Positions 3,843 to 44,054 of a stretch of 64,000 nucleotides of DNA are shown here, piece by piece. The DNA comes from Daphnia pulex (Eukaryota > Arthropoda > Branchiopoda > Diplostraca > Daphniidae): contig NC_060026.1 in NCBI RefSeq assembly GCF_021134715.1, forward strand, positions 5,571,001 through 5,635,000, read 5' to 3'. The position numbers were made by a program, and so were the translations under genes. Under the pieces are notes generated by a model. The model had not been told where the DNA came from. It ran no database searches and was given only the letters and a program-made list of their open reading frames with translations. The stretch's first letter is position 1, and the number at the start of each line of letters is the position of its first letter.

Positions 3843-4460
3843 TTAAATGGAAGGCCTACCAGCGACCAGATTGCCAAAAACACGAGGACGAAAAAGACGA
3901 ACAGACCAGACCAGATCGCCGGAAGTCGAGGACGAAAATACGACCCTATGTCGTCAATTGGACGAGAAAGAAAGGCCTACAAGTGGCCAGATTGCCGAAA
4001 ATATGACCAGACAAGACCAGAGACCAGATCACCAAAAGGCGAGGACGAAAAGACGACCCTACTTCGTCGGTTGACGAAAAAGGAGAACCCAACCGTTAAA
4101 TGGAAGGCCTACCAGCGACCAGATTGCCAAAAACACGAGGACGAAGAAGACGAACAGACCAGACCAGATCGCCGAAAGTCGAGGACAAAAATACGACCCT
4201 ATATCGTCAATTGGACGAGAAAGAAAGGCCTACAAGTGGCTAGAATGCCGAAAATATGACCAGACCAGACCAGAGACCAGATCACCAAAAGGCGAGGACG
4301 AAAAGACGACACTATTTCGTTGGTTGACGAAAAAGGAGAACCCACCCGTTAAATGGAAGGCCTACCAGCGACCAGATTGCCGAAAACACGAGGACGAAAA
4401 AGACGAACAGACCAGACCAGATCGCCGAAAGTCGAGGACGAAAATACGACCCTATATCGT
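3843..4460 (+). repeat. Tandem repeat, unit about 253 bp, about 2.4 copies
   Basis: The phrase TTAAATGGAAGGCCTACCAG recurs at 3843, 4096 and 4349, each time followed by nearly the same text (GACCAGATTGCC, GAGGACGAAAA, CGACCCTAT). The copies differ by scattered substitutions. Part of the interior of the LTR element. Confidence 0.85.
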
Positions 4461-4549
4461 CAATTTGACGAGAGAGGAGAAAAGAAGAAGACGGGGACGC
4501 AAAAAGGACGAAGCTAAGACAAAAAAACTCGGAAGGTGCCAAAGAAGAT

Positions 4550-10487: not shown

Positions 10488-11147
10488 TCAACAGAAATAT
10501 GAAAGAAAGATAAGAGTGGTCAAAGTAATGTCCAAAAACGATGTGCCACTTGGCACGAAATCAAGTTCGTTGCGATTGCGATTTAGAACATTCAATCCGT
10601 ACTCCAGCAAAATTCCTTCAAATTCCACGCCTTTCCTGTCAGAAAAGGCGCTATTCCATAACCTACTCTTGGCATTCGAGTCAACCCCGATCACAGTAAG
10701 AGGAGAGAGTAGCGAGTGAAAGACAGAGCGAAATTTGGCAGACGAAGCGACACATGAGGGGCGCACATACATGGAGATAAAACGGAAAATTTTGTCACCC
10801 AAGTGCAGATATACGGCTGCCACATGGTTGGCTAGACAGTGAGACACGGCCCGACACGAAATTGCAAGGGGGAGTTTGATCAAAATAACGGCACCATACG
10901 CATGGTCACGATCAAGGGAGTGAAACACAACATAGCCTGGTGGGATGTCAACAAGGGTTGGTGATTTAAAATTACATGCATACGGTTCCTGGACTAGAAC
11001 GATGTCCAACTCGTTCTCTAAAATGACTTCAGAGAGAGACGTCACTGCCGCTTTGGAATGGCGCAGGTTTACTTGCATGCATTTAAAAGAGTTTTTAGTA
11101 GGGGTCGGAACAAGCGATGGATTACGACTATGAGAGCTTTCCATCAT
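10488..11147 (-). pseudogene. LINE ORF2, truncated AP endonuclease
   Basis: A 219-codon frame starts ATGATGG and reads as the N-terminal part of an apurinic-type endonuclease: CMQVNLRHSKAA, then DIVLVQEPYA (catalytic Glu), a GYVVFHSLDRDHAYGAVIL core, IGVDSNAKSRLWNS (D-x-N with W) and GTSFLDITL. The late S-D-H motif with the catalytic His is missing because the homology ends at DITL; the last 10 residues belong to other sequence. Without that motif and the reverse transcriptase the product cannot be functional. It overlaps ORF1 by one base. Confidence 0.8.
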
Positions 11148-12481
11148 TAGTTGCGTTCCAATCTGATACGGTACCTAGCGACAGCCTTCATTTGGACATT
11201 GCAAAATCTGTCGCCGGCTTCGTGAGGACCGGAGCAGTTTGCGCATTTTTTTACGTTACTCGTACAATCTCTCGTAAAATGTGCACCGGCACATTTTCCG
11301 CATCGTGGGAAGGGGGAGCGACAAGATGCTTGAGGGTGGCCGTAGCCTTGACATTTAAAACAACGCCGGACTTCTCTGTCCAGCAGTACTTCGACTAGGC
11401 GGGCAGTCGTGTTGAAAAAATCAACCTCGCCTCCCATCAGGGCATAGTCTCTCGTATCCCGACAATTAAAAAAGATCTTTACGTGGCCTTTGTTCGTACC
11501 TGGTTTTTTGAAAATTTGGGTAACAGAGTCGACTTTTCCTTTCAAAGACTCATTCCTTAGCATCAGCTCCTTTTTTAACCCAGAAGAAAGCTTAGATCTA
11601 CAAACAAAGCAACAGCAGGGTACAGTTTGGATGATTGAGAAATAGATGAAAACAGATTGTTACTATCAACATTTTGTTTGGACTCCAGGATGTTTTTGGC
11701 TCGATCGAAGTCGGCGGGGTTGTTCAGCCGGACGAAAACAGTTCCATCTTTCTGCCGGACGGAGGATGGCACCGGACCACCGGCGTTTGAATCCAGGAGT
11801 TGTTCCATCTTCTCCAGTGAGATTTTATCCGTTGGGGCGGAACCTTTTGTGAAACTGGCAACCAGGACTGGTTTCGGGTCAACTCTGGTGGCCTGGGCGT
11901 ATGATGGCCTGGTAGGAGGATCCGATGTTGGAAGGACTTGGCTGGCCAAAGTGGGCTGAATGGTGTTGAACTGGTTGATGGCGGCATTGGCGAAGGCTAC
12001 TTTGGCATTAAGCAGCTCCGATTCAAGGTTGGAGATTCTTTGGTGTTGAAACTTCAATAACTCGAGCGCTGCTTCCAGTTTCGTGGCGATGGCCTCTTTG
12101 CTGAGGGAGTCCAGTCGAGAAAGCTCTTTGTCTTCCGTGATGCTGACCAGGTCTTCATATCTGAACTTCTTTGGCTCGGAGAGAGTTTCGTCCGTGCTAT
12201 TCGTCACCAGACAGCGGACGCTTTGATTTGCTTCTGGCATTCGGGGTAGAGAATATCTCTTGACTTCCACCGGTTGAGCCGGCTACTTGGGCGAGACAAC
12301 TGGCTAGTGTCGCAGGCTGCTTGTTGGTAGTCTTCTGATGTTCATAAAAGCATGGTTTGCTACAGAATTTTGAATCTTTCTTGCCTTTGTACGGGGCCTG
12401 ACATTTGAAGTAGAGGCAGACTTGTTGTGCTGGAGTTGCCACATCTTGCGTGGAGATGTCGCCACCGTCGCCTTCGTTCAT
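11147..12481 (-). pseudogene. LINE ORF1 (gag-like, CCHC knuckles), two frameshifts
   Basis: Three overlapping frames in order: 12481-12197, 12270-11575 and 11563-11147. The first carries an unusual Cys/His cluster (CLYFKCQ... FCSKPCFYEH) near its start; the second a charged segment and a region resembling the ORF1 RNA-binding core; the third three CCHC-type knuckles (CFKCQGYGHPQASC, CGKCAGAHFTRDC and CANCSGPHEAGDRFC). The frames are joined by one shift near 12215-12260 and one at an A-run near 11565-11575. The start is the ATG at 12481 (MNEGDGGD). In an active element this protein packages the element RNA. Confidence 0.75.
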
Positions 12482-13520: not shown

Positions 13521-14229
13521 GTACGTTCGCCCGGGCTATAAACTTGCAGCTGGCAGTTGGAAATAGAGGGTCGAAGTGCCATTCCTAACCACCATCACCG
13601 AGGATGCTACATCATTGGCTTCGCCTTCATTTTCTCTGCCAGAAATTCCCAATGCTACATTCAACCTGACCGGACCGTTCGTAGATGATACGAGTACGTC
13701 TGTCATGCCCCATGGAGATTAATGAACAACCCGATGGGCCAATGGTGGTCAAATTGCAGTTGATTAACCAGCAAGGAGACAAGGTGCGGCGACACATGCG
13801 AATCATTGAGGCACGAGTCATTGAGACAGGAGAACAACGGTGGAAAGCCAAATTCACGCTGGACAAAGATGACATCAACGAAAACTGTAAGCAACTGGAT
13901 GGCACCTTGATGTTCAATATCGAAATACTATGTCATGTGCATATGGAGAGGGCTCAACCGACCGACATAGACTGTAGCTCTTCTCTGTCTAAGGACTATG
14001 AGGAACTCTTCGACGCAAGGCAAGATGTTGACGTCTTTTTGATTGCCGGTGACCGCGAACATAGAGCCAACAAAATCATGCTTAAAGCCAGATGCCAGTA
14101 TTTTGCTAAAATGTTCGCAACAGACAAGAGAGAAACGAATAGCGGAGAAGTTCCTATCGAAGACATTGGATCCGAAGTTCTAGAGCAGCTGCTACACTTG
14201 CTGCTAGCACCTGCTTTTTTTTGTTACTA
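13507..14229 (+). pseudogene. MATH-BTB (SPOP-like) protein, broken copy
   Basis: The frame from ATG 13507 begins MPPFEYV and stops at TAG 13564-13566. The same frame continues after the stop to about 13720 (FSLPEIPNATFNL), then shifts. The next frame gives the end of a MATH-like domain (GPMVVKLQLIN, WKAKFTLD) and the start of a BTB domain: YEELFDARQDVDVFLIAG, HRANKIMLKARCQYFAKMF and EDIGSEVLEQLLHLL. In intact relatives, which act as substrate adaptors of cullin-3 ubiquitin ligases, the BTB continues into YTG and a BACK region. Here it ends abruptly at 14216-14226, where the CTAGGTA-rich array starts. One stop, one frameshift and 3' truncation make it a pseudogene. Confidence 0.7.
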
Positions 14230-23648: not shown

Positions 23649-25353
23649 ATGTCACACTCTTACGTCGATTTCACCTGCCTAGTCGCAGCCGTAGCCGTTT
23701 TTGTTTTCTGGATCGGATACTGGTTCGTCCATGCTCTAGCAATTGCTTATGGGTAACGTATATTTTAATTCATTTCTAGATAACTGAAATAAATGCATAA
23801 TGTTTTCCATCCATAAAAGTATTATTGATCATTTCAGAAAATGGAAGTTGCATCACAAGAGCTGCAAGCTACCAATGGAAACACCATATCCGGCCGTTTC
23901 TATCCTGAAGCCGCTCACTGGAGTTGATGTTAATTTGTTTAGTAATCTCGAAACGTTTTTTACAATGGAGTATCCGGTGGTAGGTTTTCGATTGCCAAAA
24001 GATGGATTCGACAAAAATTTAATATAGAATTTGTTTTCTTATTTTTCCTTTCCAGTACGAATTACTTTTTTGTATCAGTGACGAAAGCGACCCGTCATTG
24101 ATGTTGGTCAAAAAGTTAATAGAGAAATACCCCAAAGTAGACGCCCGAATTTTTGTTGGTTAGTAACTTTCTAAGAACCTTTCTATTTAAAAATGTTAAT
24201 TTTTGAAATTCCAGGTGGCGAAAAAGTAGGCATCAATCCCAAAATAAACAATATTCAGCTTGGTTATGCTTCTGCCAAATACGAATTATTTATGATCTCA
24301 GATGCTGGTGTTCGTAGTAAGTATTTTTTTGTTTTTGTGAAATTTTAAAACGTATGCTTAACCTACGATGTTTCTTAGTGAAAGAAGACACGCTTCTTGA
24401 TATGGTACAACATTTGAAAGAAGATGTTGGATTAATTCACCAAATGCCATTCGTATGTGACCGCGACGGGTTCCCAGCCGTCTTAGAGAAAGTAAGTTGT
24501 TTTATTTCCAATTAAATTATTTATGCATCGTCTACTATGGTGATTTGTGGAACTCACTTTTTTTATATTCACAATCTATTAGATTTATTTTGGAACAGCC
24601 CATGCTCGAATCTATTTGGCAGCTGATTTCGCAGGAGTTAATTGTGCTACGGGTATGTCGGCTTTGATGCGAAAGAAGCTGATTGACGACGCCGGTGGTC
24701 TTAAAGCATTTGGATGCTATTTGGCCGAAGACTTCTTTCTGGCCAAGGCTATTAAAGACCGTGGCTGGAAAATTGGCATTTGCAGCCAACCTGCGTGGCA
24801 GAATCCCGGCGTCTGCCACATACCCACTTTCCAGAAACGAATCATTCGTTGGGCAAAACTGAGAATTGCAATGGTTCCCAGCACAATTGTCTTTGAACCG
24901 CTTTCAGAGTGCATGTGAGGATTAGTAGCTACAATATTAAATGTCTGTTAATTTATTACCCAATCCAATGATTTATTTTTCAGGATGCTTGGTATCTTAG
25001 CTGCATGGTCCATTTATTGGCTGTTTGAATGTGATCCACTTGCAGTCTATTTATTGCACGTTCTTTTTTGGTTTTTGCTAGATTGGATTCTTCTTTCTAT
25101 TGTACAAGTAAATACTGACGCTTTCTTTTACTTTGAATAATCGATAAATTTTTATTATTTTTTGTTTTTACAGAATGGGCCGCTACCCTTCAGCAAGTTT
25201 GAATTTGTGCTAGGATGGTTTCTGCGAGAGCTGAGCGCACCTTTTCTGTTCCTCAATGCTCTGCTTCGACCAGCCATCCGCTGGAAAGCAGGAGTTTACC
25301 GCCTCAAGTGGGGAGGAGTTGTTGAGGAGATAAACCCTACTGTGAAACAGTGA
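23649..25353 (+). CDS. GlcT: Ceramide glucosyltransferase (GlcT-1/UGCG)
   Basis: Eight exons keep one frame: 23649-23752, 23838-23979, 24056-24158, 24215-24316, 24379-24491, 24583-24914, 24984-25107 and 25174-25353; 399 residues (human UGCG 394). It transfers glucose from UDP-glucose to ceramide on the cytosolic Golgi face, the first step of most glycosphingolipids. An N-terminal membrane anchor (about residues 8-30) is followed by a GT21 catalytic domain with [17 protein letters not shown] (D91 region), [14 protein letters not shown] (D146), AED (D238) and the R-x-x-R-W motif RIIRW (274-278), i.e. the D1, D2, D3, (Q/R)xxRW signature. Hydrophobic segments near 300-345 and 350-375 match the C-terminal membrane region. 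All expected catalytic motifs are present, so it should be functional. Confidence 0.95.
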
Positions 25354-26518
25354 CAAGTTTTCCGTATGACTTATGCGATTTATATCGCGAGCGATAACAA
25401 ACAGGGAACAATGAAAATCTTGTTTTTCAGTGTATTGATCAGTTTGATCACAAAGATAGTCGTACAGAAAGTTATGCGTCATCATTTTGCATTGATATCA
25501 GAGTTGTGACAATGAGTCAGAGTTATGACTCTTCGTGACCAAATAGCGTACATGCAGTTTGTAAAAGATAAAGAGAGTATCAATTTTAAACGTGAGTCAT
25601 CAATTACATGAAATATATGTCTATATATTGTTGGGGATTTTCATTTTTATTTATTTTGTTATACTTCTATTTGTTCCGTTAAAGTTTGACTACGATTTAT
25701 TAGGTCCCGGAGACCTTCGGGTGTTCGGGAGCTACTTTTTTATTTTGCTATTCCTTTTCCTCAAAGCCTATGTAAGATTCAATTTTTTATTCTTTTATAT
25801 GGCGAATTTTAAACTGAACTAATGTTTGCTTATCGGATTAATCAAATAGCTATAGATTTGTTACGGCAAAAACTCAAAATTTTGGAAAAAGTTTATTTAA
25901 GGTTTGGTAGTAAAAATTTTTTATTTTTTCAAGTGCATGCCCATAGGGATCACATCATTTGCCTAGCCGGCATAGCCCGTACCCTGACCTTCACTCCGCG
26001 ATATTGGTCCCCCACCTTATTAAGGAGAAACTGTCGTCGTCCTCGTCACCATTACTCTGTCGTAACGTACGGCACCAAAATTTCGGGATCTCATATCGAA
26101 ACTAAAGTGATTATACGTAGCTGTTCCCGCTTCCAACTCCCAGCAAGAAATTTGACGAATTTTCAAAGCTGATTAAAAATGAAAAACTAGCCTAGTAACT
26201 TGTTTGTTCAAATCCAAATCCAAAATCGTGCTGGGCCTGGGCGATTGATTAATATGTAACGATTGTAAAAGAGATGAAAGAATTTTTACTAATAAAAAAA
26301 TTACATATTTTTTCTTCCAATTATTTTGTGCTGTAAAGGGAAGGAAAGGAAGAACCATGGAAGAACGAGAGCAGGAGCCGCTAGATTTTAGGCGATTTTA
26401 GGGTTTAACAATTCATCTTTATTGAAAACCGGCAACTACTAGAGAATGTATACACATTTTTTGCAGTATTTTCTGAGTGTTTCGAGTTTCTGATCCGTTT
26501 TTTCTTGGTCTTGTAAAA
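25354..26518. other. Intergenic region between GlcT and the GANP-like gene
   Basis: Holds the GlcT 3' UTR and the promoter of the next gene. Frames at 25592-25822 and 25822-26172 show no recognisable domain. No repeat pair was found. Confidence 0.4.
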
Positions 26519-29500
26519 ATGAGATCTCAGAGTAGAAAACAACCTGCTCATGAAAATCATAGCAGCAAAAATGAAATTGCAAATTCTCAACAGGGCGAAG
26601 ATTCTGAAGCAGCTGTCAAACTGCCACAGAAAAAGAATCCCGTGTTTAGCGATGGATTACCAATGAACGTTAGTGTGGAACAACTAAAAGCTATTCTCAT
26701 CCAGCCAGCCCAAAATGTTGGAGATAGAGCAGTGTTACTTGATGCTAGAGATAGACTTGTACGTTTGATTAAAGATGCCAAGGATAAAAATATTAGTACC
26801 AAACGAGTCACCACTCTTAGTGGTACTTGTTTGGATATGTGCCCAGAGAAGGAAAGATATTCAAGAGCAGAGAAACATAGGCTTGCTCTTTATGAAATGC
26901 TGGTTTCTCCTGAAAAAATGGTATTGTGTTGTGTACTCATCAAAATTGTATGATTATTTACATACATGTTAAATCATTATTGACAGGAGTATGATGTGGA
27001 TCACCGATTGGCCGTAAAAGAATACTCCAGAAGCTCAGCAGATCAAGCAGAACCATTGGCTCATGAATTAAGGCCACTTCCAGTTTTACAAATGACAATG
27101 GATTACCTTATTGCAAAAATTGTTGATCGATGCAACAAACCAGGTGAAAATCTTGGTGATTGGTTTAACTTTTTATGGGATAGAATGAGGGGAATTCGAA
27201 AGGTAAAATAATTACATAATTATCACTCTGAATTGAAACATATGGGGTTTTTAATAATTTTATTCCTTTTCTATTTCTAGGACATAACTCAGCAAAGCTT
27301 ATGCGAAAAAGGATCCGTCGATTTGGTTGAAAAGTGTGCTCGGTTTCACATCCATTGCACATCGCGTTTGTGTGAATTGGATATGCAAGACTTTGATCAG
27401 AAAATCAACGATGAAAATCTTACCAAATGCTTACAAACACTCAAACATATGTATTACGATCTTTCCGTAAAAAACATATATTGTCCAAATGAGGCCGAAT
27501 TTAGAAGTTATGACGTCCTCCTGCACTTAAACGACGGTGAAATTTTAAGGTATATTAACTGAAGAAAAAGCAAGCCGTTTTTTTTTTTTTAACTTTTTCT
27601 TAAACTTTTTTTTAATATTATTGTAGAGAAGTACTACAGTTACGATCTGAGATCCGTGATTCGTACGAAGTTCGATCGGCCCTCGAATTTGTAAATACGT
27701 TAAACAGCCGTAATTACGTTCGCTTTTTCAAGTTGGCCAGATCTAACCGAGATTATTTACAATGCTGTCTACTTCAACGCTACTTTAATCAAATGCGTAA
27801 CCAGGCTTTTCAAATAATGGTACAGGCCTATGGGCCACCAAAAAAAGGCCAGGTATATTTACTTTGCTTATATCTCATGCATCTTTTTTGAAAGTTACTA
27901 CTGTAATTCTAATTTCCATTGTTTCGATATTGTCCTGTAGATGAAGCTGTTCAGTCTAATAAATCTTCTTGGTTATGAAGATGAAGAGGAAGCAGCGATT
28001 TGGTGCGATTACCATGGGTTACCCCTCGATCCTCAAAAAAAGACCGTAAAATTTGATCGTTCCAGCTTTATTGAACTTCCTGAAAAATTCCCTCCTATGC
28101 GGCGTTCTTCTCTCATTGAAAACAAGCGAACATCTTCTGTCAGCAACTGCATTGCCAAAAGCGGGGTACCTGAAGATCCTACCTTACATCATACTCCGCT
28201 GAACAGCTTCGACTGCAACGGTGTATTACTTCCAGAGGCATGGTTAACGGAAGATCAAGTTGAACTTGTTAAAGCGTCGCAGGTTCCAGCCGTCTCATCA
28301 ACCATCACTGCACCCACGTATACTTCCGTTCCACAAAACATGGTTGAAACTATGTCTGTTCGAGTTCGGAATGAATTAATAATTGCGACAGTAAACGAGA
28401 TCCTTGAAGAAATTGTTCAGAAAATAGTCGTTGAACAAATTAAAGTTAAAACTACTCATCGAATCTTCAGACAACTACTTGAGGAGTTTACGAGGTATTC
28501 CTGCTTCCGTTCAGCGGCCTTTTTCCCAGTTTCGTTTGATCTTACATTATCCAATTCATTAGAGATTTTTGCACGGAGCTGGCGAGTGAAGTTATGTCAG
28601 AGATTAAGACTGCAAAGTACCAGTTACAACACAAACTAGACCTGGAGCGTAAAGTTCGAGTTTTTTCAAGCAAGGTAACTTATTTTTACTATTTTTAATA
28701 AATTTTATTTTCTGTCTATTATTTTTATAAAGATTTTTGGCGATATTTTGGATTCCGTTATTTGCGAACAAGTGAAATACATTGGCGTTGAAGAAATTCA
28801 ATCCGCGACTCGCTTACGTGTTAACATCATGAAAGAAAAGCATGCCCGTCGAATGCTCGATGCGTTAGTAAATGAAATTATTACGGTCGAAAGCCGTGCA
28901 GTTGCCTCGGTTGTAGCGTCTGAAGCCATTGAAACAAGGTAAAAAAAAATATATATTATGTTTTATTAACTGAAAATATTTTTCTATGTTATTTCGTTTG
29001 TTTAGGGAAATAATGGTTTCACGAGTTTCAGAACTAGTTAAACAACTTAGAGTTCGTCGTTGGATTAGAAAATGGCGAAGATTTACGGCTTTGCAAATCC
29101 GTCGAAGAAAAGAAAAGCAAACATTTCCAGCTTGCCCTTCTCGTTTAGTATTTGATCAACAAATAGCTTCTTTGAAATCAAAAGGCGAGTCGCCGGGTGT
29201 GTCTTTAAAGCGCAAATCTCTTGTCGAACAAACCGTCTCTGTCAAACGCTGTAATTCTCTCTCTGGTAAGTGTTGCTACATATCATTATTGATCGCATTT
29301 CTGTTTTCAAATCTGTTTTTCTATTTTTAGACCTTCAATTTAATTTAAACAAGATTAACTCGTCATTAGAAGAAAAAATATTCGATTTATTTTTGCTTCT
29401 TGAGAAATTGCCTTGGAATTCTTTGGAAAGAAACCGCTCCTGGAAACTTGTTATTATGTCTATTGGGGATGAAAAAGTCGGAGATATTTTCCGTAAGTGG

Positions 29501-31380
29501 TTGGGCTTCTCCACAACAAAACGGACTAAAAACGGGGTAAGCCATTAAAATCGGTGCTATTATGTCATTTACTTAAAAAATTTACACATCTCTTTAGTGG
29601 GTGTATACTGAAACGAAAACCAATCAAAATCCTATCACGCTTTGCGTCCGTTTTGTGAATGGTTGTGACCAAATATTGGAATTTTTGCGAGGTGCAAACG
29701 CTTTTCTGGTGGTCTATGATCCTCTTTCAGAAGTGGAAAACACCTTAAAAAATCTGGCTCAGTTGGTTTTGCTGCACTCGAAGTATTTTCCGCTGTCCGT
29801 GGCTTCGATCGCGTCAAAAGATCATTCTCAAAAGATGGATCACGTGGTTCAAATTTTAAAGCCATGCTGTCACAAGAAACTAAGTTTTGATAAACCTGGT
29901 TTCGATAAATATTATGTTGTGAGTATTCAAACTTTTCCTCCAATGATAAGTAAACTATTATTTAATTTTCCCGCTTAGCTTACAGAACTTTTCTCGACCC
30001 TTTTTGAAGTCGGCCAAACCACCGTCATCCCGCCTTCTACTCGCTTAAGCACTACCACAGTTTGGGATCTGGCAAATAATTTTATTACTCACAAAGTCCT
30101 CCCGACAATTTACCGTGATATGCAACTGCGGTTGGAGTACAACCTTCCTCATCAGGTACAAGATTGTTTGTATTGAATTAATCTGAAACTTCGAATTGTC
30201 TTAACTTTTTCTTTTTCAGTCGTTATCTCACCTGCTTGATTTTAATAATCATGCCATCCAGAGCTTTCTTGAAAACATTGTGTTAGATTCTGAGCTCAGT
30301 CAAGTTCGTTGGCCGGCCTCAGAATTTGTTTGCATACCCCACCTTACTTTTCCTCCTACCAATTGGAACTCAAAATCATATCAAAACGAACTAAAACAGG
30401 TATGCGTTCTTACTTGTTGGTTGCATTCACATGTGAATCATCTAGTTTAATCTAAATACTCATTGCAGTCGCTTGAAAGATACTTGGTTCTCCCATTCTG
30501 GCATCCTAATGAGGACAGTTTTTTATCAGTGTGCGTTTCATTGCGCAACTATTGCGTCGATCTTTCTGTAGAAACAGATGTGACAGCGTTACTCTCGAGG
30601 TAAATCAAATGTGGTGTTGATTGCTTGACATAAATGATTTATTTATTTTTATTGCATTTTAGGGTTGATTCCATCTTGTTTCAGACTAAACAACGTTTTG
30701 AGAAAAATCATTCTAATCAAAATCTTCTCCAGAGTCACATCATACCTTGGACTGATATTTATCAAGTAGTTTTAGCAACATTAGACGGATTTTATTACTT
30801 CCACAATAATCTGTTTTTCTTCCAGGCCTGTATCGATTATCGGTTGCAAGCATTTGTCAATGAAGGGTCGAACAAATTAATGGGCTATTTTCCTCAAGCA
30901 TTTGACGAAATCCAGTCCGATCTGTCTTGGGTAAAGGCTAGAAGTTTTTTGGAACCCACAGGTTAGACAAAATCTATTATTACAACACTATACCATACTT
31001 ACATGAGCATGTTTTATTCGTCGACAGATCAACTATGTACGGAATTGAACGCTCAGCCATCAGATCGCGGAAAAATTTCGATATCCGCCAATCAACAACC
31101 CAAATCCCTTGATTTACCAGACAGTATTGCAACACTTTGTAGCGCCATCGCTGATTCTTCAAGACAAAGTCATGAAGAAAACAAACTTTTTGAAGCAATC
31201 CTCTTGCGTGTCCTTACTCCTGAAAAGAAATCACTCAAACGTTCACCGGCCAAGCAATCTTCCACAACGCCTGTTAGTATGGAGGATCACTTCGATTTGC
31301 TGGAAAGAAGACTGCAGCAATCTCGCTGTGAGAGCCAACAGTTTGAATCCTATTTAAAACGAGCGTTGGATGATGCTTGA
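26519..31380 (+). CDS. GANP/Xmas-type SAC3-domain protein of the TREX-2 complex
   Basis: Fifteen exons stay in frame: 26519-26920, 26987-27202, 27281-27549, 27627-27852, 27941-28494, 28563-28674, 28733-28938, 29006-29265, 29331-29536, 29598-29918, 29979-30155, 30220-30399, 30469-30599, 30663-30961 and 31028-31380; 1303 residues. The SAC3 domain starts at [13 protein letters not shown] (about 102-114) and runs through [41 protein letters not shown]-like text and [10 protein letters not shown]. The long C-terminal part resembles the MCM3AP/GANP tail. In metazoans this scaffold couples transcription to mRNA export at the nuclear pore. Compared with vertebrate GANP it lacks the N-terminal FG-repeat and RRM parts and is closer in layout to Drosophila Xmas. 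ATG 26519 was chosen because the longer frame begins at GTG. The penultimate exon contains a possible 60-nt in-frame intron (see findings). Confidence 0.9.
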
Positions 31381-31879
31381 AGACTTACGTGTAGCGCTAC
31401 TATTGCCATTATCAAAATGTTTGTGAAGTGGTAAATATAAATAATTTTTTTAACGAAGTAAGTACTCTGTAGTTTGAATACATTTTGTATTGAAATATTT
31501 TTTGCGCTCCTTGAGCAAAATTCTTTTTTTATTTGTTGTTGTTGTTATTAGTTGCTTCATAGTTTAAACTTGCGCATTCGACTGCTGACTCTTGTATGTA
31601 TATTGTCTTGTATAACCGAGAAGTATAGTTAGAGGGAGGCAAGGGGACCAGCCAAGCTAAGAGTTAATTGAATTACTGGAAGGTGTGCTTAAAGGCAGCG
31701 AAACTATCCCCCCCCCCCCTCCTTCACCCCACTCTAGGGTTTCACCGTTACTCCCTGATACGTCGTATCGTTACATTTGCGCTCCGTTTCAATTGAAAGT
31801 TGGGTCGAACGCAATCTGTTCGCCAGTCTGTCCGGCTTATGCATACTGTATGAGGCACAGTAGTTAATCACAGGCGTAA
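31381..31879. other. Short intergenic region
   Basis: GANP-like 3' UTR and upstream region of the first channel gene. A C run of about 10 lies near 31710. No gene seen. Confidence 0.45.
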
Positions 31880-34535
31880 ATGAAAACGATGTGGACTATA
31901 GAATGGTTCCAGATCGTTCTTCTCATCTTTGTCGCCCTTTTTGCTGAAAACCAAGCCGAGTAAGTTTTTACACTTTTGTCTTGTAGAGTCGAACAGCTGA
32001 ATGTGTTCTGTGTTAGAACAATCGATACAAGTGCAACTGTAATGCTAATCTTGAGCGGTACGACACCGTACGTATGCACGGTAGTACTACTGTAAAATAT
32101 CAAATTTAGTGTACAACATTGGAATATAAGAACAATGTGAGATTGAAATATTTAGTTATGATGCTTGTAGAATCTCATCTAATTATGGTTGTCGCTGATC
32201 GTTAAACAATCAGTTTGCACCAAGTTTACCAGCCAACAACTTCATTTTCGATGGGGCTGCAGTCAGTCACGTTCACAGTTCACAGTTAAAATTTCTTTAA
32301 TAGGGATGAAACAAGCTTGGTATTAACCGATATCTTGCCAAAGGATACTAAAACCTACGACAAAAATCGACCTCCAAAGTATTCCGGACAGCCAACAGTC
32401 GTAATATTTTCTATTTCGCGTTCTTGATCGATAAACCTATCTTTTCTTTTAAAATTGTTACCAAGGTTTATTTCCACGTAACAGTTCTGTCACTCGACAC
32501 CATCAATGAAGAATCAATGGTACAAGTTCCTGCAAAATTATTTTTATGCTAGTATAAATTTGATACTTTTTTCTTTGCAATGTGATGTTATAGACATATG
32601 TAGCGGACATATTTCTGGCACAAAGTTGGAGAGATCATCGTCTACGTTTACCCGAAAATATGACGTCTGAATATCGGTAAGAGGGAAAACCCTAAAAAGT
32701 TGTTTTCTTTTCTTTTTAAACTAATAGTGTAAGGTCCCCATACAATCCATACATATATTGAACCTAATAACTTACGAATTTTATTACGTCATTGGTATAG
32801 CTTCTCTTCTTTAGAATAACTGGTACCTTCTTCAGATTTAATTAAGTGCTGAGAAGTGAATTCCAACTGTAATAACAATTTGATATAATTTTTTTTATTT
32901 CAATAGAATTCTCGATGTCGGTTGGCTACAAAATATATGGCGGCCTGATGTCTTTTTCAAAAATGCCAAACAAGTCACATTTCACGAAATGAGTGTACCT
33001 AATCACTATCTGTGGCTTTATCACGACAAAACACTTATCTACATGGCCAAGTAAGTCGGCGGGGATTCCCTTCGCTTATATCATAATTCATCAACACTGT
33101 TTCCTTCAGACATATATGTCTTAAGATCCCTAAATGAATTAATGAGCTTTATAGTTCAGAGAACCTATACTAGCCCAATTGAATTAAATGAATTCATCCC
33201 TCATGATTGCATGTTTACAAGGTTGACGCTGGTTTTGTCCTGTGCCATGAAATTCGAATCTTATCCGCATGACACACAAATCTGTTCGATGCAAATCGAA
33301 AGCCGTAAGCTATTTTTTTTTCTAGCCAATTTGTTTTTGTTAATTACAATAAGTCACTGTGCACTTCATTTACATTTTATTTCATTAGTTTCTCACACGA
33401 CGTTTGATTTGGTGTTCAAGTGGAATCTGACTGATCCTCTAGTAACGAATCCTGATATCGAATTGCCTCAATTAGACATTGCCAAAAATTTCACGGAAGA
33501 TTGTACGTTGGAATATTCAACGGGTGAGTCATTTCTTCTTCGGAACTTATTGAAGCGTTTTTTGTTACAATTATTGACCATTCTTATTATTCATTCTAAA
33601 GGTAATTTCACCTGCCTGGCCGTGGTATTTAACCTTCGACGTCGATTAGGCTATCATTTATTTCATACGTACATCCCATCGGGACTGATTGTCGTTATGT
33701 CTTGGATTTCATTCTGGATCAAACCTGAAGCAATTCCTGCCAGGGTTACCTTAGGAGTGACATCGCTACTTACACTAGGTATATTCCTTCTTTAGCTTCA
33801 ATTTTTTTTCACGGGTTTTATTATTGCTCTCTATATATTCTATCTGTACACGTAATCCACAGCTACACAAAGTACGCAGTCACAAAGGTCACTGCCTCCC
33901 GTGTCTTACGTCAAAGCTATAGACGTATGGATGTCGTCATGCACTCTTTTCGTATTTATGTCTCTCATGCAATTCGCCGTAATATTTTTCTAAATGTTCA
34001 CTAAAAAAAAGGGTACAACTCAATCTATTCTTTTTTTTTAATAATCAACAAATAAATGGCACAGGTTTGCAATCACTTCATGGGAACCGGAACTCCCGCA
34101 AAACCAAAAGTGCTATCAGACGAAGAACTTCATAATAGTGGTCTTGATTCGGTGAGAATTTTTTTTTTCTTTTTTTTTTTTTTTTGTTGCTGGAGACTAT
34201 ACATTTGAAAAAAATATTATGTAACGTTTCCAATGCCATTGCTTGTTTTCCAGCCGGGTCATACCAATGGGCTACTACGCTTTCGGGCGAAATCCCCCAA
34301 TGCAGCAGAGCGGAGAACGACTCCCAAATATGTCACTTCTTGTTATGGTCGCGAGGTATGTTGCTATGTTATCTAATATTTGTTTCAGCATCCGCAAATG
34401 TAGTCTTTATAATTTACGCAGGTTGCGCTCTCCATAGACAAATGGTCGCGATTCACTTTTCCATTCGCATACTTGGTCTTTAATATTTTCTATTGGACCA
34501 CTTTTCTAGAAGATGTCAATGTCATCAACTTGTGA
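31880..34535 (+). CDS. Cys-loop ligand-gated chloride channel subunit, tandem copy 1
   Basis: Twelve exons in frame: 31880-31959, 32304-32400, 32466-32519, 32594-32676, 32907-33050, 33222-33304, 33389-33523, 33602-33778, 33863-33978, 34065-34151, 34254-34355 and 34422-34535; 423 residues. A signal peptide (about 1-26) leads into the ligand-binding domain with [27 protein letters not shown] and the Cys loop C160-x13-C174. A second cysteine pair, [12 protein letters not shown], is typical of inhibitory subunits. M1 begins at [12 protein letters not shown]. The M1-M2 linker reads IPAR, the PAR anion-selectivity signature, and M2 continues [14 protein letters not shown]. The M3-M4 loop is short. 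M4 and the C-terminus ([21 protein letters not shown]) end the protein. It resembles the arthropod pHCl-2/CG6927/CG7589 group more than GABA or glutamate receptors. The ligand cannot be told from sequence. Confidence 0.9.
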
Positions 34536-36232
34536 AAAAAAAACTTTCCAAAGAATTTCGAAGCATTTCAGTCATTTCTGTAGCCCTCTTCTTTGTACAT
34601 TTTCTCACGTGACAATCAATTCCTAATAATTTTTTGGCTGTTTTTTTTTTTCCTTGTCCGTTTTCAAATAATAAGACCAATCATAAGACCAATTGAGACA
34701 CTTGACTAATTTCATCTGTCTGCGTGATTTTCATCTCAATGTTTCATCATTCAGAATCAGACATCATTGGTATGGTGGCAAAAAAAAATGCAACACTTAT
34801 TAATTCAAATAACTGAATTCACAGTCAAGATTTTGAATGTAAAGTATACGAAATTTCAACACTATATACACATCATAAATTTAATTTATAACAATTTTTT
34901 TACCAACAAGAAATTTACGCTTATGAATTGTTAAATGCTAGGCTCTTAAAGTAGAAAAAATCGATACAAATATGTGTGTGTGTGCTCGCAAGTTGGTAAA
35001 AAAATACTAGTGAATTCTTCATTTCCTGTGTTACTGCTAATTACTAAGCTTATTGTGAGTTATTCCAATCAACGCAAAGCATTCATTTGATAGTTAATTT
35101 CTTCATAAGAATCTATCTTGGTCAAAACTTAATAAGACCACGGTATTTGGCGTAATGTTTTTTTTTTGTTTTTTTAAAGATTTGTTTAAGGCTGATTTAC
35201 AAATCGATTTTTCTACGCGACATTTAATGCCGCGTATATTTGAGACCTTTACTTCTTAAGCACCTTTTTAAACCAAAGAGTTCTTTGACCTTATCCCTCT
35301 GCAGTCTGCAGAAGGGCAAACCGTAAAATCTAGCTTTTCTTTTTGTAGTTCTTTAATTTCCCTTCGAAACAACTCGAAGAATTTTCCATATCCTTTCTCT
35401 CCACACCATTTTCATGTATTTCTCTGATGTGGTTCTACATCCGAATTGCGGATTGGATGAAAAAAGACAGTAATTTTTCGGAATAAAATTGACGTGACGT
35501 TCACTTTTCATTTGATGTAACGTGAAAAAAACGAAATAAAATTAAGTGTGGTACTACATTTTCTGTAAGTTAGAAATCAGCTAAACATGATTCATTCAAT
35601 TCACGCGAATGACATATATTAGAATTGCCATATTTTTAATTTCGTCGTCCGTAACGGAATCAATACCTACAGATTACTTCACCAAAGTTTAAGTTCGGTT
35701 AGTTCTAGGCATTAGGCTGGGCGGCGGCACTGTTCAAGAGCGGTTTCTAATTCATTTTATAGAGGTAAAGGTACATCATATATCACCCCTTCCGGCAGTT
35801 CTGACGTTGATAATGCTATATTCTTATTCCGAATGGAATCAATACAAGAAGGTCTCCGGTCTCCCTCTACCTGCGATGCCTCAGCGCTCTTGGCCAGTTG
35901 AAAAGAATAAGGAAAAAAGAAAAGAGAAATTGATCCCTATCTTAACGTCTTCGGAAAGGGGGCACTGGGCAGCTCTGTTGTGTCGCTTTCCCTTCGACTT
36001 ACATCCAGGATAGGCAAAACAAGGAAACAGTTCTGTAATTTGATTATGGGCACCGACTGTACCTCTTGCAGTGAACTCAGAGCCATGCAGAAGCGGTAGG
36101 TAGACACCTTCACTAGCTGGGCTTCCTCATCGCGACGTCGTGTAGCGAAAATCTTCTGCAGTCGTGTAAGCCGTGCGCTAGAGGCTAGATGGGATTCGTT
36201 CGCTTTGCTTTTGTTAACAGCTAGCACAGATC
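34536..36232. other. Intergenic region between the tandem channel genes
   Basis: No gene and no obvious transposon. Homopolymer T runs near 34645 and 35160. It should contain the promoter of the second channel gene; no clear TATA box near 36150-36200. Confidence 0.4.
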
Positions 36233-39200
36233 ATGTGGATAATTCACGCAGCTCTGCTAGTTCTCACTGTTTTCGTCCTAGGCGGTGGACATGAGTGAGT
36301 CATTTTTCGCCACTTTTATACAGTTTATAGTGATATTTTCCAGGATATGATTTGTGAAATAGAGAAAAAGAATAACATGTTTTGAAATTTGTAAATCTGT
36401 ATCGAAACATATCGCAACCAGTGGGCGTCAGATCCATTCATTTCATTCAACATAATTTGTTTTCACCAAATGTTAGATGAAAATTGATATTCAATAAGTC
36501 TCTGTAACGATTCTACTAAAAAAATTTACTATTACTGTTATTGTTATTACTTATTAGTGATAGCAATACCCTATTTGTAGTTGTGCCTTGTGCAACTGAT
36601 GGAACTAATTTCTTGGATTACACAACTAGCTACATTATGGCTGCACAGACACAGTATTTTGTACGCCACTCTTCAATACTTCAACGTCATATTTCACAAT
36701 ATAAGGAATCAGTATACAGCATATTTGTCCATCTTTGCCTACCACGACATTTGACATTTTCACTCTAAAATGTTTGCGCTTTAATATATGTTGTGCATTT
36801 TCTAAATGAGCGACTATATCTTTCAAACGCATTGTTACTTCAATCGAAGTAGTCAATAAAGAGCGACAGCAAAGAAACATTTAAAAATCCAACTTCTTTT
36901 ATAAAAGTAGTAGTAGCCCAGCTGTACAAAGTGACTTTCTTCGCCGTTCGACATGTTTAGCAAATTAAGTTTAAAGAAATTATTGCAAAATAATAAGAGA
37001 AAGTAAGAGAGACAATGAAAGTTCGTACCTTGTATTTACGTATATAGTGTCTTTTGTTCTTCTCCTTCCTAATCCTCTTTTCTCAAATCTCACTGTATAT
37101 ATTTTTTTTGTTTTGTTTTTATTTCTTCATTTTCATGTCAGAGTGCCTGCAATGTCTCTTCTAACGAGAAAAGGTAAACGTTGGCCGGAATTACCCAAAA
37201 ACCACCAACGGTTCTCATCGACGAGCCCATTCCAGCAGCCATTACACAGTGTGCCAGCAGCTAGAGAACCCGAATTAGCGCTGGATTTATTTTCCGTCAC
37301 GGGTATTGAGAGAAAGGGGCGTACGGTCAACCCAGATGTCTTAAAACGAAATGAATTCAGAGCTGGTCATTTACCGGCAGAAGAAAACGAACATCATCGC
37401 ATTCGCCACAATCGGCGCAAAACTGGTCGGCGGCACGCTTCCGTCGAGAACAAACAATTGACATTCGAGGCCGAAACGGACGACGGCCACGACCTGTCGA
37501 GTAACAACATGCATGAACTCGACAGCTTGACTTCAACACCTCAGCCAGCCAACGGTGATGATGATGAAACGGAAAACGAAATAACGGAGGAGACAACGCC
37601 GCCAGACCCAACCTCCAATCGTCCACCAATTCTTCCACGGAGATGCTCGGGAAAGAACAACGATTCCAGCTGTACGTCCGAGCGCAATAATCGTTTCCCG
37701 TCGTCGGTCTTGATGATCGAAGCTCATTACAATCAGACGGTGCGAGACTTTTTGCAGATCTGCACACCGGTGGAGCGGGTGGAAATCGAGAGCGTCGATG
37801 ACGTCCAACTGCTTCTCAACGCTCTCTATGAGCAGATGACGGTCAAGGACAAAGCAAGCGGCAAGTCGGCTTTTCTTCTACTCATAATGCTTAAATATCT
37901 CATCTATTAGAATCTTATTCTATTAGATGAGTCATTCTATTAGATATGCGGCAATCCACCGTGTTAGATGGTGTTAGATATGTGGCAATATGTGTTAGAT
38001 GGGTCAAATCTCTGTACAATGTACACATATGTTAAATAGTTGTTGTAATCCAATATATAGGGATTGCGGCAGCTATATAGCGGTAGCGGGTAGCTATATC
38101 TATACCAATGTCAATTGCTATATATTGCTACAACCAACACATCTACCAGGCCTAACGGCCTACCGGCCTAATACCTAGTCTCTAATACAGAATTCTCTAT
38201 TACAGCCAGTCTCGTCTTGCTTTTCAATTTGGAGCACTACGCCAATTGGACCAAAGAACGGGTCATCGATGTTTTGCAGTCCTCGGTCAATGCCCTTCAC
38301 AACGGCTTCAACGACATGACGATTTACAGCAAATTCCATCAAGATGGGGCCGATTCCAACGACACCCATCTCACGCTAACCTACGACGTCAAGTATTGGC
38401 TCTCTGAATTGTGCAACCAACGTCTGACTCCGTGTGCCGACTTCGCCTCCATCATTCTCGAGTCCGTCTTACAAATGAACGACATTGAAAATGAAGGCGT
38501 CACCAATCACTTGGCGTCAGGAGAAATGGATTCGTTAGAAGATGCGTCGTCGCAAGCCAATGCGTAAGTATTGATCGGCTGGGTTATTTTCTAGCTAGAT
38601 TTAATGCAATTAAACTAATCAGTTCTGTTTCTGTATAATGCTTCATTTTGCTGACTTGCAGGTGGTGCCAGCAACTTGGACTGGGTCCAGGCTCCCGAAT
38701 CGTCGATGTGAGAGCATTGCCTCTCAAATCTGCGGGTGGCTATCATAGGTTAGTCAACTCAAATAAAATAATTAAGTTTTTTTTTTTAATTAACTAAATT
38801 TCTTAATGTGATTTGGATATTTTATTAACAATACAGGGAAGAATCAAGCTTGGTACTTGGAGATATTCTGCCGAGAAATTCCAAGTCATATGATAAAAAC
38901 AGAGCGCCGAAATTTTTTGGACAACCAACCATAGTACTTTGCAATTACATTTAACTTTAATAGAAATCTAATCCTTGTTTTTATAGGTGTACTTTCACGT
39001 AACCGTCTTATCCATTGATACCATTAATGAGGAATCCATGGTGGGGCACCGACATTTAACAAAAATTATTATGGAAACAATTAAATAATTAATCAACTAA
39101 TCAATTATTTCTTTCTACTCTGCTGATATATCCTCCAACAGACGTACGTAGCAGACATTTTCCTTGCACAGAGCTGGAGAGATCACCGTCTGCGGTTACC

Positions 39201-41158
39201 AGAAGATATGACAGAAGAGTACCGGTAACGGGAAATCCCCCTAACTCGATTATTTAGTGCTATAGCCAATACATAGGGCTCGTTTCTTGTACGGTAGCTT
39301 CAAAAATAAGTTCTACAGTACAAGGCACTGCTATATCGTTATCTTTAAGAACTACCAGAGCCTCATCAATAACGAAAACGTGTTGTATTTTTTCTAGAAT
39401 TCTTGATGTCGGTTGGTTGCAAGACATTTGGCGGCCGGATTGCTTTTTCAAAAACGCCAAGAAAGTAACATTTCACGAGATGAGTGTTCCTAATCACTAT
39501 CTCTGGTTGTATCACGATAAGACCCTAATTTACATGGCCAAGTAATGACCTACTTTCTATCCAGTTTTAATAAATCAATGAAAAAGAAATTTGAAATGAA
39601 GTTAAATTCAAACACCAAAATTTGTAAACAAACCATATCGAATTCTATAATTTTTTAAAAATTATAACTTAGGTTGACTTTGGTATTGTCCTGTGCAATG
39701 AAATTTGAAAATTATCCGCATGACACGCAAGTTTGTTCCATGCAAATTGAAAGCTGTAAGAGGATTTTTTTTAAACTTCCAGTTTAATTGTAATCTGTTT
39801 CATAAATAACGCAACCTTCTTTTGCAAGTGTCCCACACCACACATGATCTGGTATTTAAATGGAACTTTACCGACCCCCTGGTAACCAATCCCGATATTG
39901 AGCTGCCGCAATTGGATATCGCAAAAAATTCCACAGAAGACTGCACGCTAGAATACTCGACCGGTAATCATAATCAAAGATTTTTTTAAACATTCAACAA
40001 ATTGAAATCTAGGCTAGTACGACACATGTTATAATTTTCCGCTATAAAGTAAAACGTGTTATAATTTCCAATTAAAAAATAAATTTATTTTTTATATTTA
40101 TCATTAGCCATTATTAATGAACTATTTTACTCAAAGGTAATTTCACCTGCCTGGCCGTGGTATTCAACCTTCGCCGCCGATTAGGCTACCACTTGTTTCA
40201 TACTTACATTCCGTCAGGATTAATTGTAGTTATGTCTTGGATTTCCTTCTGGATCAAACCCGAAGCTATTCCTGCCAGAGCTACATTGGGTGTAACTTCC
40301 CTCCTTACTTTGTGTAAGATATTGGAATGCTTTTATATTGATGTTTAGAATGAATGCACATTTCATTCGACAGCGGCACAAGATTTCGCTGAATAACTGA
40401 TTTTTTTTTTCAAACAGCGACACAAAGTACGCAGTCCCAGAGATCTCTTCCGCCTGTTTCCTACGTCAAAGCGATTGACGTTTGGATGTCTTCTTGCACT
40501 GTTTTCGTCTTTATGTCTCTAATGGAATTTGCAGTCGTTAACAGTTTTATGGGACCGGGTAATACGATTTTTTTACATTGTTCTCTGCTCTACTTGCCAA
40601 TTTAATCCCTCTTCGTTACAGTTGCAACCAAGCCGATGAAGGGCTATTCTGAAGAAGACTTAACGATCCATCGAGTACGTAAACTTTTTTGTTTTTCTCC
40701 CAGCTCTATTTTAGCTTATTTAAGCTTATTCACAACTTGAATTACTGCTATCCTTTGTTTTCCATAATGAAAAATTTCCAATGTTTTAAATTTGTTGCTG
40801 GTTTGTTTTGTTTTTTAAATTTGTTCAACAACTATTTTTTAACGATTATACCATCTCCACTCCAACAATTGGATTACGTTGCATTTGATTTCCTCACTTG
40901 AATTTAACTTGTGACTTTTTTTTTATCCGTTCGGACACAAAGCCTTCCGGTTACAATGGCACTTCTTCATCCCTTCGCTTGAGAGGAAAAGCCTCTAGCC
41001 CTGCCCGTGGACCGCCGCCACCGCCGCCAGGCCCTCAATATGTTACCTTCTGTAACGGTCGCGAAGTGGCCTTGTTTATTGATCAATGGTCGCGTCTCTT
41101 TTTTCCTCTCGCCTTCATCATTCTCAACATTGTCTACTGGACTACTTTTTTGCACTGA
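36233..41158 (+). CDS. Cys-loop ligand-gated chloride channel subunit, tandem copy 2, with large N-terminal extracellular insert
   Basis: Fourteen exons in frame: 36233-36294, 37142-37860, 38206-38563, 38662-38748, 38837-38933, 38987-39040, 39142-39224, 39398-39541, 39673-39755, 39829-39963, 40137-40313, 40418-40558, 40622-40674 and 40943-41158; 802 residues. Exon 1 gives a signal peptide. Exons 2-4 add 388 residues absent from copy 1, after which the receptor matches copy 1 exon by exon: [18 protein letters not shown], Cys loop C-x13-[28 protein letters not shown] and M4 ending [14 protein letters not shown]. The insert has a basic/acidic low-complexity part, then a helical-looking part with sequons (NQT, NWT, NDT) and [10 protein letters not shown] before the receptor. 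The M3-M4 loop carries GPPPPPPGP. The intron after exon 2 is GC-AG (G|GCAAGT). Splicing exon 1 directly to exon 5 would also stay in frame. Confidence 0.85.
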
Positions 41159-41769
41159 AAAATAATCTTTGTTGTTTCCTACTGCTGTTATGTGTGCAAC
41201 CCACTGTACGCGCTGTCGATCGACAGTAGCCTAGTACACCATTGTGTTCCTCTGCTGTGCAGTGTAGACTAAATTCTGAAGAAGACCGACAACAATTTGT
41301 GAAATACACAATTTAAAAAACTGTTTTCATCAAAAGCGTTTAGGCCGCGCATTTAGACATTTGCACATGTTTTTATTATTCAACAATCGAAAATCATTTT
41401 AGATAGCATAATTCCAAATCATTTCTTTTTACATGTCTGACTAAAAAACGGCCAAATAAAATTCTCTTAATGCCATCAGTTACATCCTTGTTTGTTATAT
41501 CACCTTACTCTGAGGAGATTTGTTCACATTTTGCCATTTTATTTTCGGCAAAAGACAAATTTTTGGTGTTGAGGTATCGTGCACGTATACAAGTTCGCTT
41601 TTAAACTCTTATCTAAAATCGAGTCTAAAGTGAAGCAACGTGGATAGCTTATCAGTCGTTGAAAATGTCAAAACGCTATCAAATAAAAGTGATAAAGAGC
41701 CTTCAGTCCCAATTACAGCAACCAAGTTTACGGATTTTTTGTTTCGCAGTCATAGACAAATCTTGAAAG
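41159..41769. other. Intergenic region with channel 3' UTR
   Basis: AATAAA near 41455 may end the channel transcript. An initiator-like TTATCAGTCG near 41650 lies about 120 bp before the next ATG. No gene. Confidence 0.4.
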
Positions 41770-44054
41770 ATGACGGAATTCAACCTTAAGTGTTTCTGTT
41801 TTTCCAAATTGTTTTTTATTTCAATTTTATTGATTGGTGGTAGTTATGCTGCTTACCCTCCAGTGGGTGATATAAACTGCTATAAAGGGAGCTGCGAGTC
41901 AGTGGAATGCCAAAGTGTTGATTGCAGTTTTGGTAAATTGATGACCAATCCCAGTAGCTCCTGTGGATGTTGTAAGCTGTGTCTGAGCTACATAGGTAAG
42001 AACGTATAGATTTTGTTGACCATTCATATTAACTAATTTAATAATTATATAACTGTAACATGACCTCAAAGGAAGGATCAGTTATATAACTTACTTTGCT
42101 GACATGCAAATGAGTACTTTTCCTCTTTTTCCCTGCATTGTCGCAATCTACTCTACGAAGCGTCGTATGCGCGATATGCAGAGATTTCTATTTGTTCCTT
42201 TTCGAAAACTCATAGAGGGTTTGAGATATCGAGTTGAAACTTTTTATTGTAATTATTGTTGCTTGTAATGGTTGTTTAGGAAGCTTTAAAACTTAAATTT
42301 AGTCAAATTAGTTCAATTAAGTTTAAGAAAAGTGTCGTTTTCCATGGTAGCGCAAATGGCCGAGCTAGCGGCGGGCGTCAGTTATACGAAAATTGGACTA
42401 CAATATTATATTAACAAAGCATAAAATGAAATCCCGCATATATTTTTTTTCCCGCTATTGTGTAGGGGAAAATGAGCCTTGTAGTCTTAACATGAATAAC
42501 CAAGAATGTGGCCCAGGTCTTACTTGTGCAGCCGCGTCTAAGAATTCGAAATCGGACTACATATGTGTAAAAAGTTAGTAAAAATGTTGGCTTCGAAATA
42601 AGATCACTGTGTGCTTTCAGTAATGAATTACCCAAATTTTGAATTTAGTGAACACGAAATGCTTCGAAGCTCAAGATGAATATGAAGTTCGGAAATTAAG
42701 TGGTTCACTAGGAATGTATGAGACACGTCCCAGATGTGACGACAATGGTGACTTTATTGCAAGAAAGTGCCAACCAGGTGGCAGGTACAGTACCGTGTCC
42801 AAATTCTGTTTATTAATTATTATTTTTTTTTTTTAAAATTTGAATTGCAATTTTTACAGCTGTTATTGTGTCGATATCAACAACAATCGGATTTTTGGGG
42901 AATCCCCGCCTAGTTATGCTGCAACTGACGCAGCCATGAATTGTGGTATGTGTCCATCCCAAAAAAACGAAACAAAAAATAACTAAATAAATAATAAATT
43001 CCGATGAAACTTTTAGAATGTTCCAGAGCTTATCAACTGGCACTGGCGGGTTCGCTACAATCGGTACAGTTTCCTCACTGCCTACCAAATGGCAACTATG
43101 ATACACTGCAGTGTGTAAATCAAGCCTGTTTTTGCATCAGTTCTACCAACCAAACCCTCACTTCTTCTATCCAACCCATTACTGCAATTACGGAGTTACC
43201 GTGCTGTAATTGTTTCATCTTCAAGAAATACTTTTTGCGATTTGTACTCGCGAATTTACCTATGCTCATCTCTATTCTGAACAGATAACACTGACGTGCA
43301 TTCAGCTGATTACTACCGGCCTTGCGAAATGAAAAGGTTAAAGACTAAATTTTTTGGGAATAGTTACATCCGCCAGAATATCACAGTACTTGGACTGGAA
43401 CAACCGGATTGTTCGCCAGATGGATTCTACCAATCGATTCTTGAGACAGAATCCACGTATGTATTGCCAAACCTCTTCTTTTCTCTTCGGCTTACTTGAA
43501 AAGACAAAAGAGTGGCCACCAGACCAGTAACTCGGTTTATTACTTTCTGAATTTTATTTTCATGAAACCACGAGTATTTTCGTAACAAAACGCATGAGAA
43601 AATTTGTTAACTTTTGCGAGATGTGTTCGTCGAATCTTTAGACTGGCAATGAACGTGAAATTAGTCAAATTTAATTTCTTAATCACAACGAATTTTGAAT
43701 TTCAGACTTTACTGTGCAGATCCTTATGGGGAAAAAATTGAAAATTTCGAAATCAACAAACCGGATGACAGTTCTATGAATTGCAGTATGTTAATTTAAA
43801 AGATGCAAGATATACTACACAAAAAACAATGTTATTTTTTTGCAATAGAATGTGCGCGAACAAGATTTTGGCTTACCAATCAAAAATTAGCCAAACCAAT
43901 CTGTTGCAGCAACGGGAACTATCGACCAATCCAATGCCGAGGGGGGGTTTGTTTTTGTGTAGATGATGACGGAAATCAGACTGGCCTAGAAGTTCAAGAG
44001 AATAACTTAACTGAGTTACAGTGCTATCAGTTAAAGCAATATCCTGATTGCTGA
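41770..44054 (+). CDS. Secreted cysteine-rich protein with thyroglobulin type-1-like repeats
   Basis: Eight exons in frame: 41770-41995, 42466-42573, 42649-42784, 42860-42945, 43017-43205, 43285-43456, 43706-43785 and 43849-44054; 400 residues. A signal peptide (about 1-27, ISILLIGGSYA) precedes an IGFBP/antistasin-like segment (CQSVDCSFG, SSCGCCKLC, CGPGLTC). Then come about four repeats with the thyroglobulin type-1 order C...C-x-x-x-G...C-x-P, C-x-C-V-D: RPRCDDNGDFIARKCQPGGSCYCVD is the clearest, followed by CLPNGNYDTLQC/CFC, PDCSPDGFY/LYCADPYG and CCSNGNYRPIQC/CFCVDDDG. Each repeat spans an exon pair or single exon. Such domains inhibit cysteine or aspartic proteases in several animals; whether this one does is open. 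Lineage-specific family likely. Confidence 0.8.

Follow-up and report, generated by a model that had tools for sequence, protein, structure and literature searches.

A candidate 388-residue cassette before the ligand-binding domain of one of two tandem Cys-loop anion channels in Daphnia pulex

The prokaryotic pentameric channel DeCLIC carries N-terminal lobes that are packed against the extracellular domain and affect the gating kinetics, and such N-terminal domains are stated, in the portion of the source consulted here, not to have been observed in any eukaryotic homologue (PMC9897478). The arthropod channel subunit HclB is presented as a typical one, in which variation mainly concerns the signal peptide and the intracellular loop, and the part of that paper used here describes no extracellular addition (PMC2805722). 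A survey of the open-licence PMC literature, by titles and the openings of abstracts, returned no work on an N-terminal cassette in the Cys-loop channels of arthropods.

Here we describe a locus of Daphnia pulex that lies in a stretch of 64,000 nucleotides (the window; positions 5571001-5635000 of contig NC_060026.1, C10 of assembly G000 in our numbering) and holds two tandem Cys-loop channel genes, hereafter copy 1 and copy 2. Genome searches covered the complete assembly (133,188,837 bases, 13 contigs). Judging from the sequence, we consider it reasonably probable (roughly 0.6) that exons 2-4 of copy 2, together referred to as the cassette, are real coding exons fused to the copy 2 channel.

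Two tandem channel genes and their surroundings

Copy 1 (31880..34535, plus strand) encodes an intact Cys-loop anion channel of 423 residues in 12 exons, free of the cassette. Copy 2 (36233..41158, plus strand) is an intact Cys-loop anion channel as well, with 14 exons and 802 residues in its predicted long form and 11 exons and 414 residues in the short form. The first exon of copy 2 (36233..36294, plus strand) contains the start codon and a hydrophobic leader that, judged by sequence, resembles a signal peptide, and ends in phase 2. Exons 5-14 (38837..41158, plus strand) encode the ligand-binding domain, the membrane region and the stop, and exon 5 is entered in phase 2. A strong donor (score 8.0) at 36096 and AG sites shortly 5' of the start codon (36096-36230) suggest that an intron may be present in the 5' UTR of copy 2.

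Over 410 aligned residues, the channel parts of the two copies share 78% identity. Their divergence was taken from a count of fourfold sites (the NG86 dS is undefined), and as 86 of the 134 sites have changed, the duplication is old. A preliminary description of the locus had paired the two copies exon for exon. This pairing holds up to M3, but after M3 the intron positions diverge and the correspondence is therefore incomplete, with exons of 116, 87, 102 and 114 nt in copy 1 and of 141, 53 and 216 nt in copy 2. Close to the end of M3, copy 1 is interrupted by an intron (33979-34064) at a point where copy 2 has none, and the M3-M4 loops of the copies align poorly. The proposed absence of the cassette from copy 1 was borne out: at the site occupied by the cassette in copy 2, copy 1 has intron 1 (31960..32303, plus strand), 344 nt long and in the same phase (phase 2), and the one match of the cassette to it by tblastn is a chance one of 17 residues (E 1.0).

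The short form of copy 2 matches Pfam PF02931 (4.3e-35) and PF02932 (3.6e-33) above the cut-off, and TIGR00860 with 318.9 bits (cut-off 280.2). The solved structures closest to the copy 2 channel are glycine receptors (2.4e-88). The Cys loop, with its two Cys 13 residues apart, reads [15 protein letters not shown] in copy 2 and [15 protein letters not shown] in copy 1, and the PAR motif before M2 is IPAR in both. We take the ligand-binding domain and the M2-M3 region of both copies to resemble HisCl1 closely, and as a lead, both are perhaps HisCl1-type channels that are gated by histamine. The W-to-P spacing, which is 182 in both copies, was rejected as a test for HisCl1, since glycine receptors have the same spacing. 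In HclB, W111 and P293 are spaced as in both copies (PMC2805722).

In the parts of the literature used here, Daphnia is reported to have two HisCl genes and no counterpart of CG11340, CG6927, CG7589 or pHCl (PMC3879215), two decapods have three to four ionotropic histamine receptors (PMC5096308), and CG12344 is named as another near relative of HisCl (PMC2064938). The loci that we compared are five: copies 1 and 2, one locus on contig C4 (3.34 Mb) and two on contig C10 (4.93 Mb and 6.97 Mb), a set of nearest relatives rather than a tree. As five loci group here against the two HisCl genes in the consulted portion of PMC3879215, the HisCl naming is provisional.

Upstream of the channels, at about 23800-31400 of the window, lie a glycosyl transferase family 21 gene and a SAC3/GANP gene, and a gene with a thyroglobulin type-1 repeat follows downstream (41767-44054). 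Further features were observed closer to the start of the window. A BTB-domain frame is located at 13685-14227. The minus strand at 10488-12282 encodes an Exo_endo_phos_2 domain (E 1e-17), with zinc-knuckle-like Cys motifs noticed by eye in a neighboring frame, and looks like the remnant of a non-LTR retrotransposon. The region 3800-6500 is strongly purine-rich (AT skew 0.75 at 4001-6000) and contains several tandem repeats, the largest of which is 253 nt x 2.5; its long frames, which are rich in Lys/Arg/Glu or, on the reverse strand, in Ser/Phe/Leu, are probably not genes.

Coding potential and splicing of exons 2-4

Exon 2 (37142..37860, plus strand, 719 nt), exon 3 (38206..38563, plus strand, 358 nt) and exon 4 (38662..38748, plus strand, 87 nt, phase 2 to 2) sum to 1164 nt or 388 codons, with phase 2 at entry and exit. 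The preliminary description had these three exons added in frame ahead of the ligand-binding domain, and exon ends, frames and phases could all be rebuilt from the sequence. Its further statement, that the flanking junctions are equal in phase so that exon 1 can join exon 5, is correct too: both junctions are in phase 2, and the long (802-residue) and short (414-residue) forms are both open to the stop at 41158. A short isoform of copy 2, made by skipping exons 2-4, is thus possible as far as phases permit, but equal flanking phases would turn up by chance roughly one time in three and are uninformative on actual skipping. The frame is also kept when exon 4 alone (87 nt) or exons 2 and 3 together (1077 nt) are skipped.

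The open frame of exon 2 comprises 311 codons and is unlikely to be due to chance: when this stretch was simulated 3000 times under an order-2 Markov model, the longest frame had 296 codons. The frame of exon 3 (131 codons) was attained in 251 of the 3000 simulations, and exon 3 is therefore not provable by length alone. We also scored the six frames of each exon with a codon model, for which 30 long open frames served as the training set. The proposed frame came out on top of the six for exons 2 and 3 and lowest of the six for exon 4, in a model that is weak: it framed correctly 25 of 53 left-out pieces of 360 nt, 9 of 18 of 717 nt and 96 of 279 of 87 nt, where chance is one in six. The codon score is 0.076 for the joined cassette and 0.051 for the copy 2 channel part, and the GC content of exons 2, 3 and 4 (0.51, 0.49 and 0.56, respectively) compares to 0.31, 0.37, 0.34 and 0.17 for introns 1-4.

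Splice sites were scored with models trained on 20 donors and 20 acceptors of the two channel genes, the acceptor model spanning 15 bases. Intron 2 (37861..38205, plus strand) is of the GC-AG type with the donor gcaagt, which scores 9.1 when position +2 is excluded, compared to at most 8.3 among the 20 training donors. A short degenerate tandem repeat is present within this intron (37940-38002). The acceptor of exon 2 scores 1.8, compared to at least 2.7 among the 20 training acceptors, and is preceded by a long T-rich tract. Under lax thresholds, 890 in-frame splice paths connect exon 1 to exon 5, some of which start exon 2 at 36977 or omit exon 4, and in-frame splicing by itself is for this reason weak evidence. 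The boundaries of exon 2 and the inclusion of exon 4 are accordingly provisional.

The same observations, the weakness of exon 4 and the many alternative in-frame paths, fit the alternative that exons 2-4 are non-functional, that is, decayed, chance-open or mis-joined intron sequence, with the 414-residue form as the channel, and the lack of relatives in the searches made (see below) points in the same direction. The length and composition of the exon 2 frame, together with the first rank among six frames of both exon 2 and exon 3, argue against this explanation, which we consider improbable.

The weak acceptor 5' of exon 2 is also consistent with a separate or differently started transcript that runs outside the channel, for instance from the ATG at 37152, the first in the frame of exon 2. 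No in-frame ATG is found between the upstream stop and this position, so exons 2-4 have no leader of their own, and secretion would require an upstream exon such as exon 1. The product of such a transcript would thus be leaderless despite its six Cys and four sequons. Moreover, the cassette frame is not closed by a stop codon before the splice site of intron 4 and continues into exon 5. An AATAAA is present at 38762, but the intronic stop at 38795 is 33 nt downstream, and poly(A) cleavage from this signal would mostly precede any stop codon. A transcript of this kind is distinctly unlikely, and we proceed with exons 2-4 as putative coding exons of the channel gene.

The encoded cassette and the search for its relatives

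Residues 22 to approximately 185 of the long form, encoded by the first part of exon 2, make up a charged arm without Cys that is basic first and acidic after. The six Cys of the cassette (residues 189, 198, 228, 330, 337 and 382) and its four sequons (residues 194, 218, 274 and 312) are all located after residue 185, which fits an exported, disulfide-bonded domain beside the ligand-binding domain. The remainder of exon 2 accounts for Cys 189, 198 and 228 and for two sequons, exon 3 for two Cys, two sequons and several helix-favoring windows, and exon 4, the least certain exon, for the last Cys and a linker. The cassette was further analyzed by segment, using simple composition measures that do not amount to structure. 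Several helix-favoring stretches follow residue 186, and some windows of the arm favor helix as well. The fold index is negative for 13 of 15 values sampled over residues 35-203 and positive, mostly weakly, for 14 of 17 over residues 215-407; by these measures, the arm is probably disordered. Sequons, acidic and basic stretches and a helical-looking part with Cys had been noted before and are recovered here. Structure prediction, which had been put forward as a check on the cassette, was of no help: the model that AlphaFold2 produced for exon 3 by itself, with no alignment as input, is unusable (pLDDT 39.5, pTM 0.26).

The cassette contains eight dibasic pairs, two of them overlapping, as well as R-x-x-R strings at residues 78, 109 and 202. 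Seven of the pairs are located in the Cys-free arm and the eighth (187-188) just before the first Cys, which makes it a serious alternative that the cassette is a propeptide or a shed ectodomain, cut at basic sites to leave an ordinary or nearly ordinary mature channel, in which case some of the cassette would be released or would serve in folding only. A cut at 188 would release the arm, with the Cys-containing part staying attached. However, dibasic pairs are common in basic arms, and past residue 188 the only candidate is the R-x-x-R string spanning 202-205, with Cys 198 before and Cys 228 after it; no site near the end of the cassette would free it as a whole. Overall, processing of this type seems unlikely to us, and a cassette retained on the copy 2 subunit is preferred.

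We searched for relatives of the cassette in several collections. The 388-residue cassette, entered with one junction residue off, had no match in Pfam up to E 10, and pieces of it had none above the cut-off; the best (SepF, 0.03 and 0.016; Terminase_4, 0.16) were taken as chance. The 222-residue Cys-containing part, the only part queried in these two cases, had no match in NCBIfam, and in the PDB had matches that were taken as chance (Gp24, E 0.25; cyclodipeptide synthase, E 1.3). Exon 3 gave one pattern match among viral contigs and 18 among contigs of prokaryote genomes, and the last 81 codons of exon 2, compared with viral contigs only, gave 27, none of which was confirmed. The domain had been called novel, with a fold that was not recognized. 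The searches agree with this in that no family was found, but the collections beyond Pfam and the PDB hold almost no animal sequence, and the parts of the cassette were queried in different collections.

A likeness to the extracellular helix-rich domain of ZIP4 was considered and rejected. The two are helical and Cys-containing alike when compared by eye, helix by helix, but their alignment is no better than that of shuffles (z -0.94 local and 0.02 global, against the stretch of PDB chain 4x82), and the Pfam scan of the cassette showed no match to the ZIP4 domain (PF18292). Some insect chloride channels are gated by zinc. Elsewhere in the genome, there are 26 matches to the Zip family.

Within the D. 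pulex genome, the cassette (one residue off) and its first 185 residues matched only their own locus up to E 10, and a DNA search up to E 1 also returned the own locus only, in searches that score the best candidates only. The same search with the ligand-binding and M1-M2 part as query served as positive control and gave 41 matches. As the matches of the cassette are limited to its own locus, there is no sign of a transposon or retrocopy as its source. Against the stretches of the three related loci, tblastn of the cassette did not rise above chance level (lowest E 0.42 in one comparison and 0.18 among seven matches in another). The cassette is therefore found in one of the five compared loci, copy 2, and a gain there is simpler than four losses. 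On this comparison, intron 1 of copy 2 is the probable site of its gain. The related gene on contig C4 (at about 3.337 Mb; L014, 9374-9853) contains a low-complexity stretch rich in Ser, Gln and His ahead of its ligand-binding domain; this stretch is read in one open frame, is shorter than the cassette and is possibly an independent N-terminal extension.

Possible role of the cassette and comparison with known systems

The expression, topology, fold and role of the long subunit we infer as follows. On the mature extracellular side, the subunit would start with the flexible charged arm of approximately 165 residues, followed by a disulfide-stabilized, N-glycosylated and probably helical domain of approximately 190 residues directly before the ligand-binding domain. 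By its position, this domain would be located on the membrane-distal rim of the pentamer, one per long subunit, where it could cap or brace neighboring subunits and tune gating or assembly, and the arm might extend away from the pentamer and bind a partner in the cleft or matrix. Ordinary subunits would be available from copy 1, so that pentamers could be mixed and carry few heads. Taken to its full extent, the proposal would be that an orphan, disulfide-bonded helical head with a charged arm, the first among animal pentameric ligand-gated channels, is spliced in or out, and that gating or synaptic anchoring depends on how many heads a pentamer carries; put in this form, it is tentative and rather doubtful.

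If the D. pulex channels are gated by histamine, photoreceptor synapses are a possible site of their action, and a tuned variant could bear on light-driven behavior. If expressed, the long form would also provide a natural experiment, the same channel with the domain and, in the head-free sister copy 1, without it. It would further exemplify how a large extracellular domain, for which the searches have so far returned no relative, can be gained via exons in an intron of symmetric phase.

With the arthropod channels HisCl1/HclB and HisCl2/Ort, both D. pulex copies share the Cys loop and the PAR motif before M2. Arthropod Cys-loop subunits with extracellular additions are known from Drosophila GRD and from splice variants of Tribolium GRD and pHCl, which are similar to copy 2 in this respect (PMC2064938). 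As far as the consulted part of that work describes them, however, the 75 residues of GRD and the loop C insertions of the beetle are short and lie inside the ligand-binding domain, whereas the cassette has 388 residues and precedes it (PMC2064938). In gene anatomy only, copy 2 is more like DeCLIC and other prokaryotic pentameric channels, which have an extra block N-terminal to the ligand-binding domain. In the portion of its description used here, DeCLIC has two jelly-roll lobes, whereas the composition of the cassette suggests helices and disorder. If the long form is expressed, copy 2 would place an accessory N-terminal domain on a Cys-loop receptor of an animal, an architecture not observed among eukaryotic homologues according to the portion of the DeCLIC study cited at the outset (PMC9897478).
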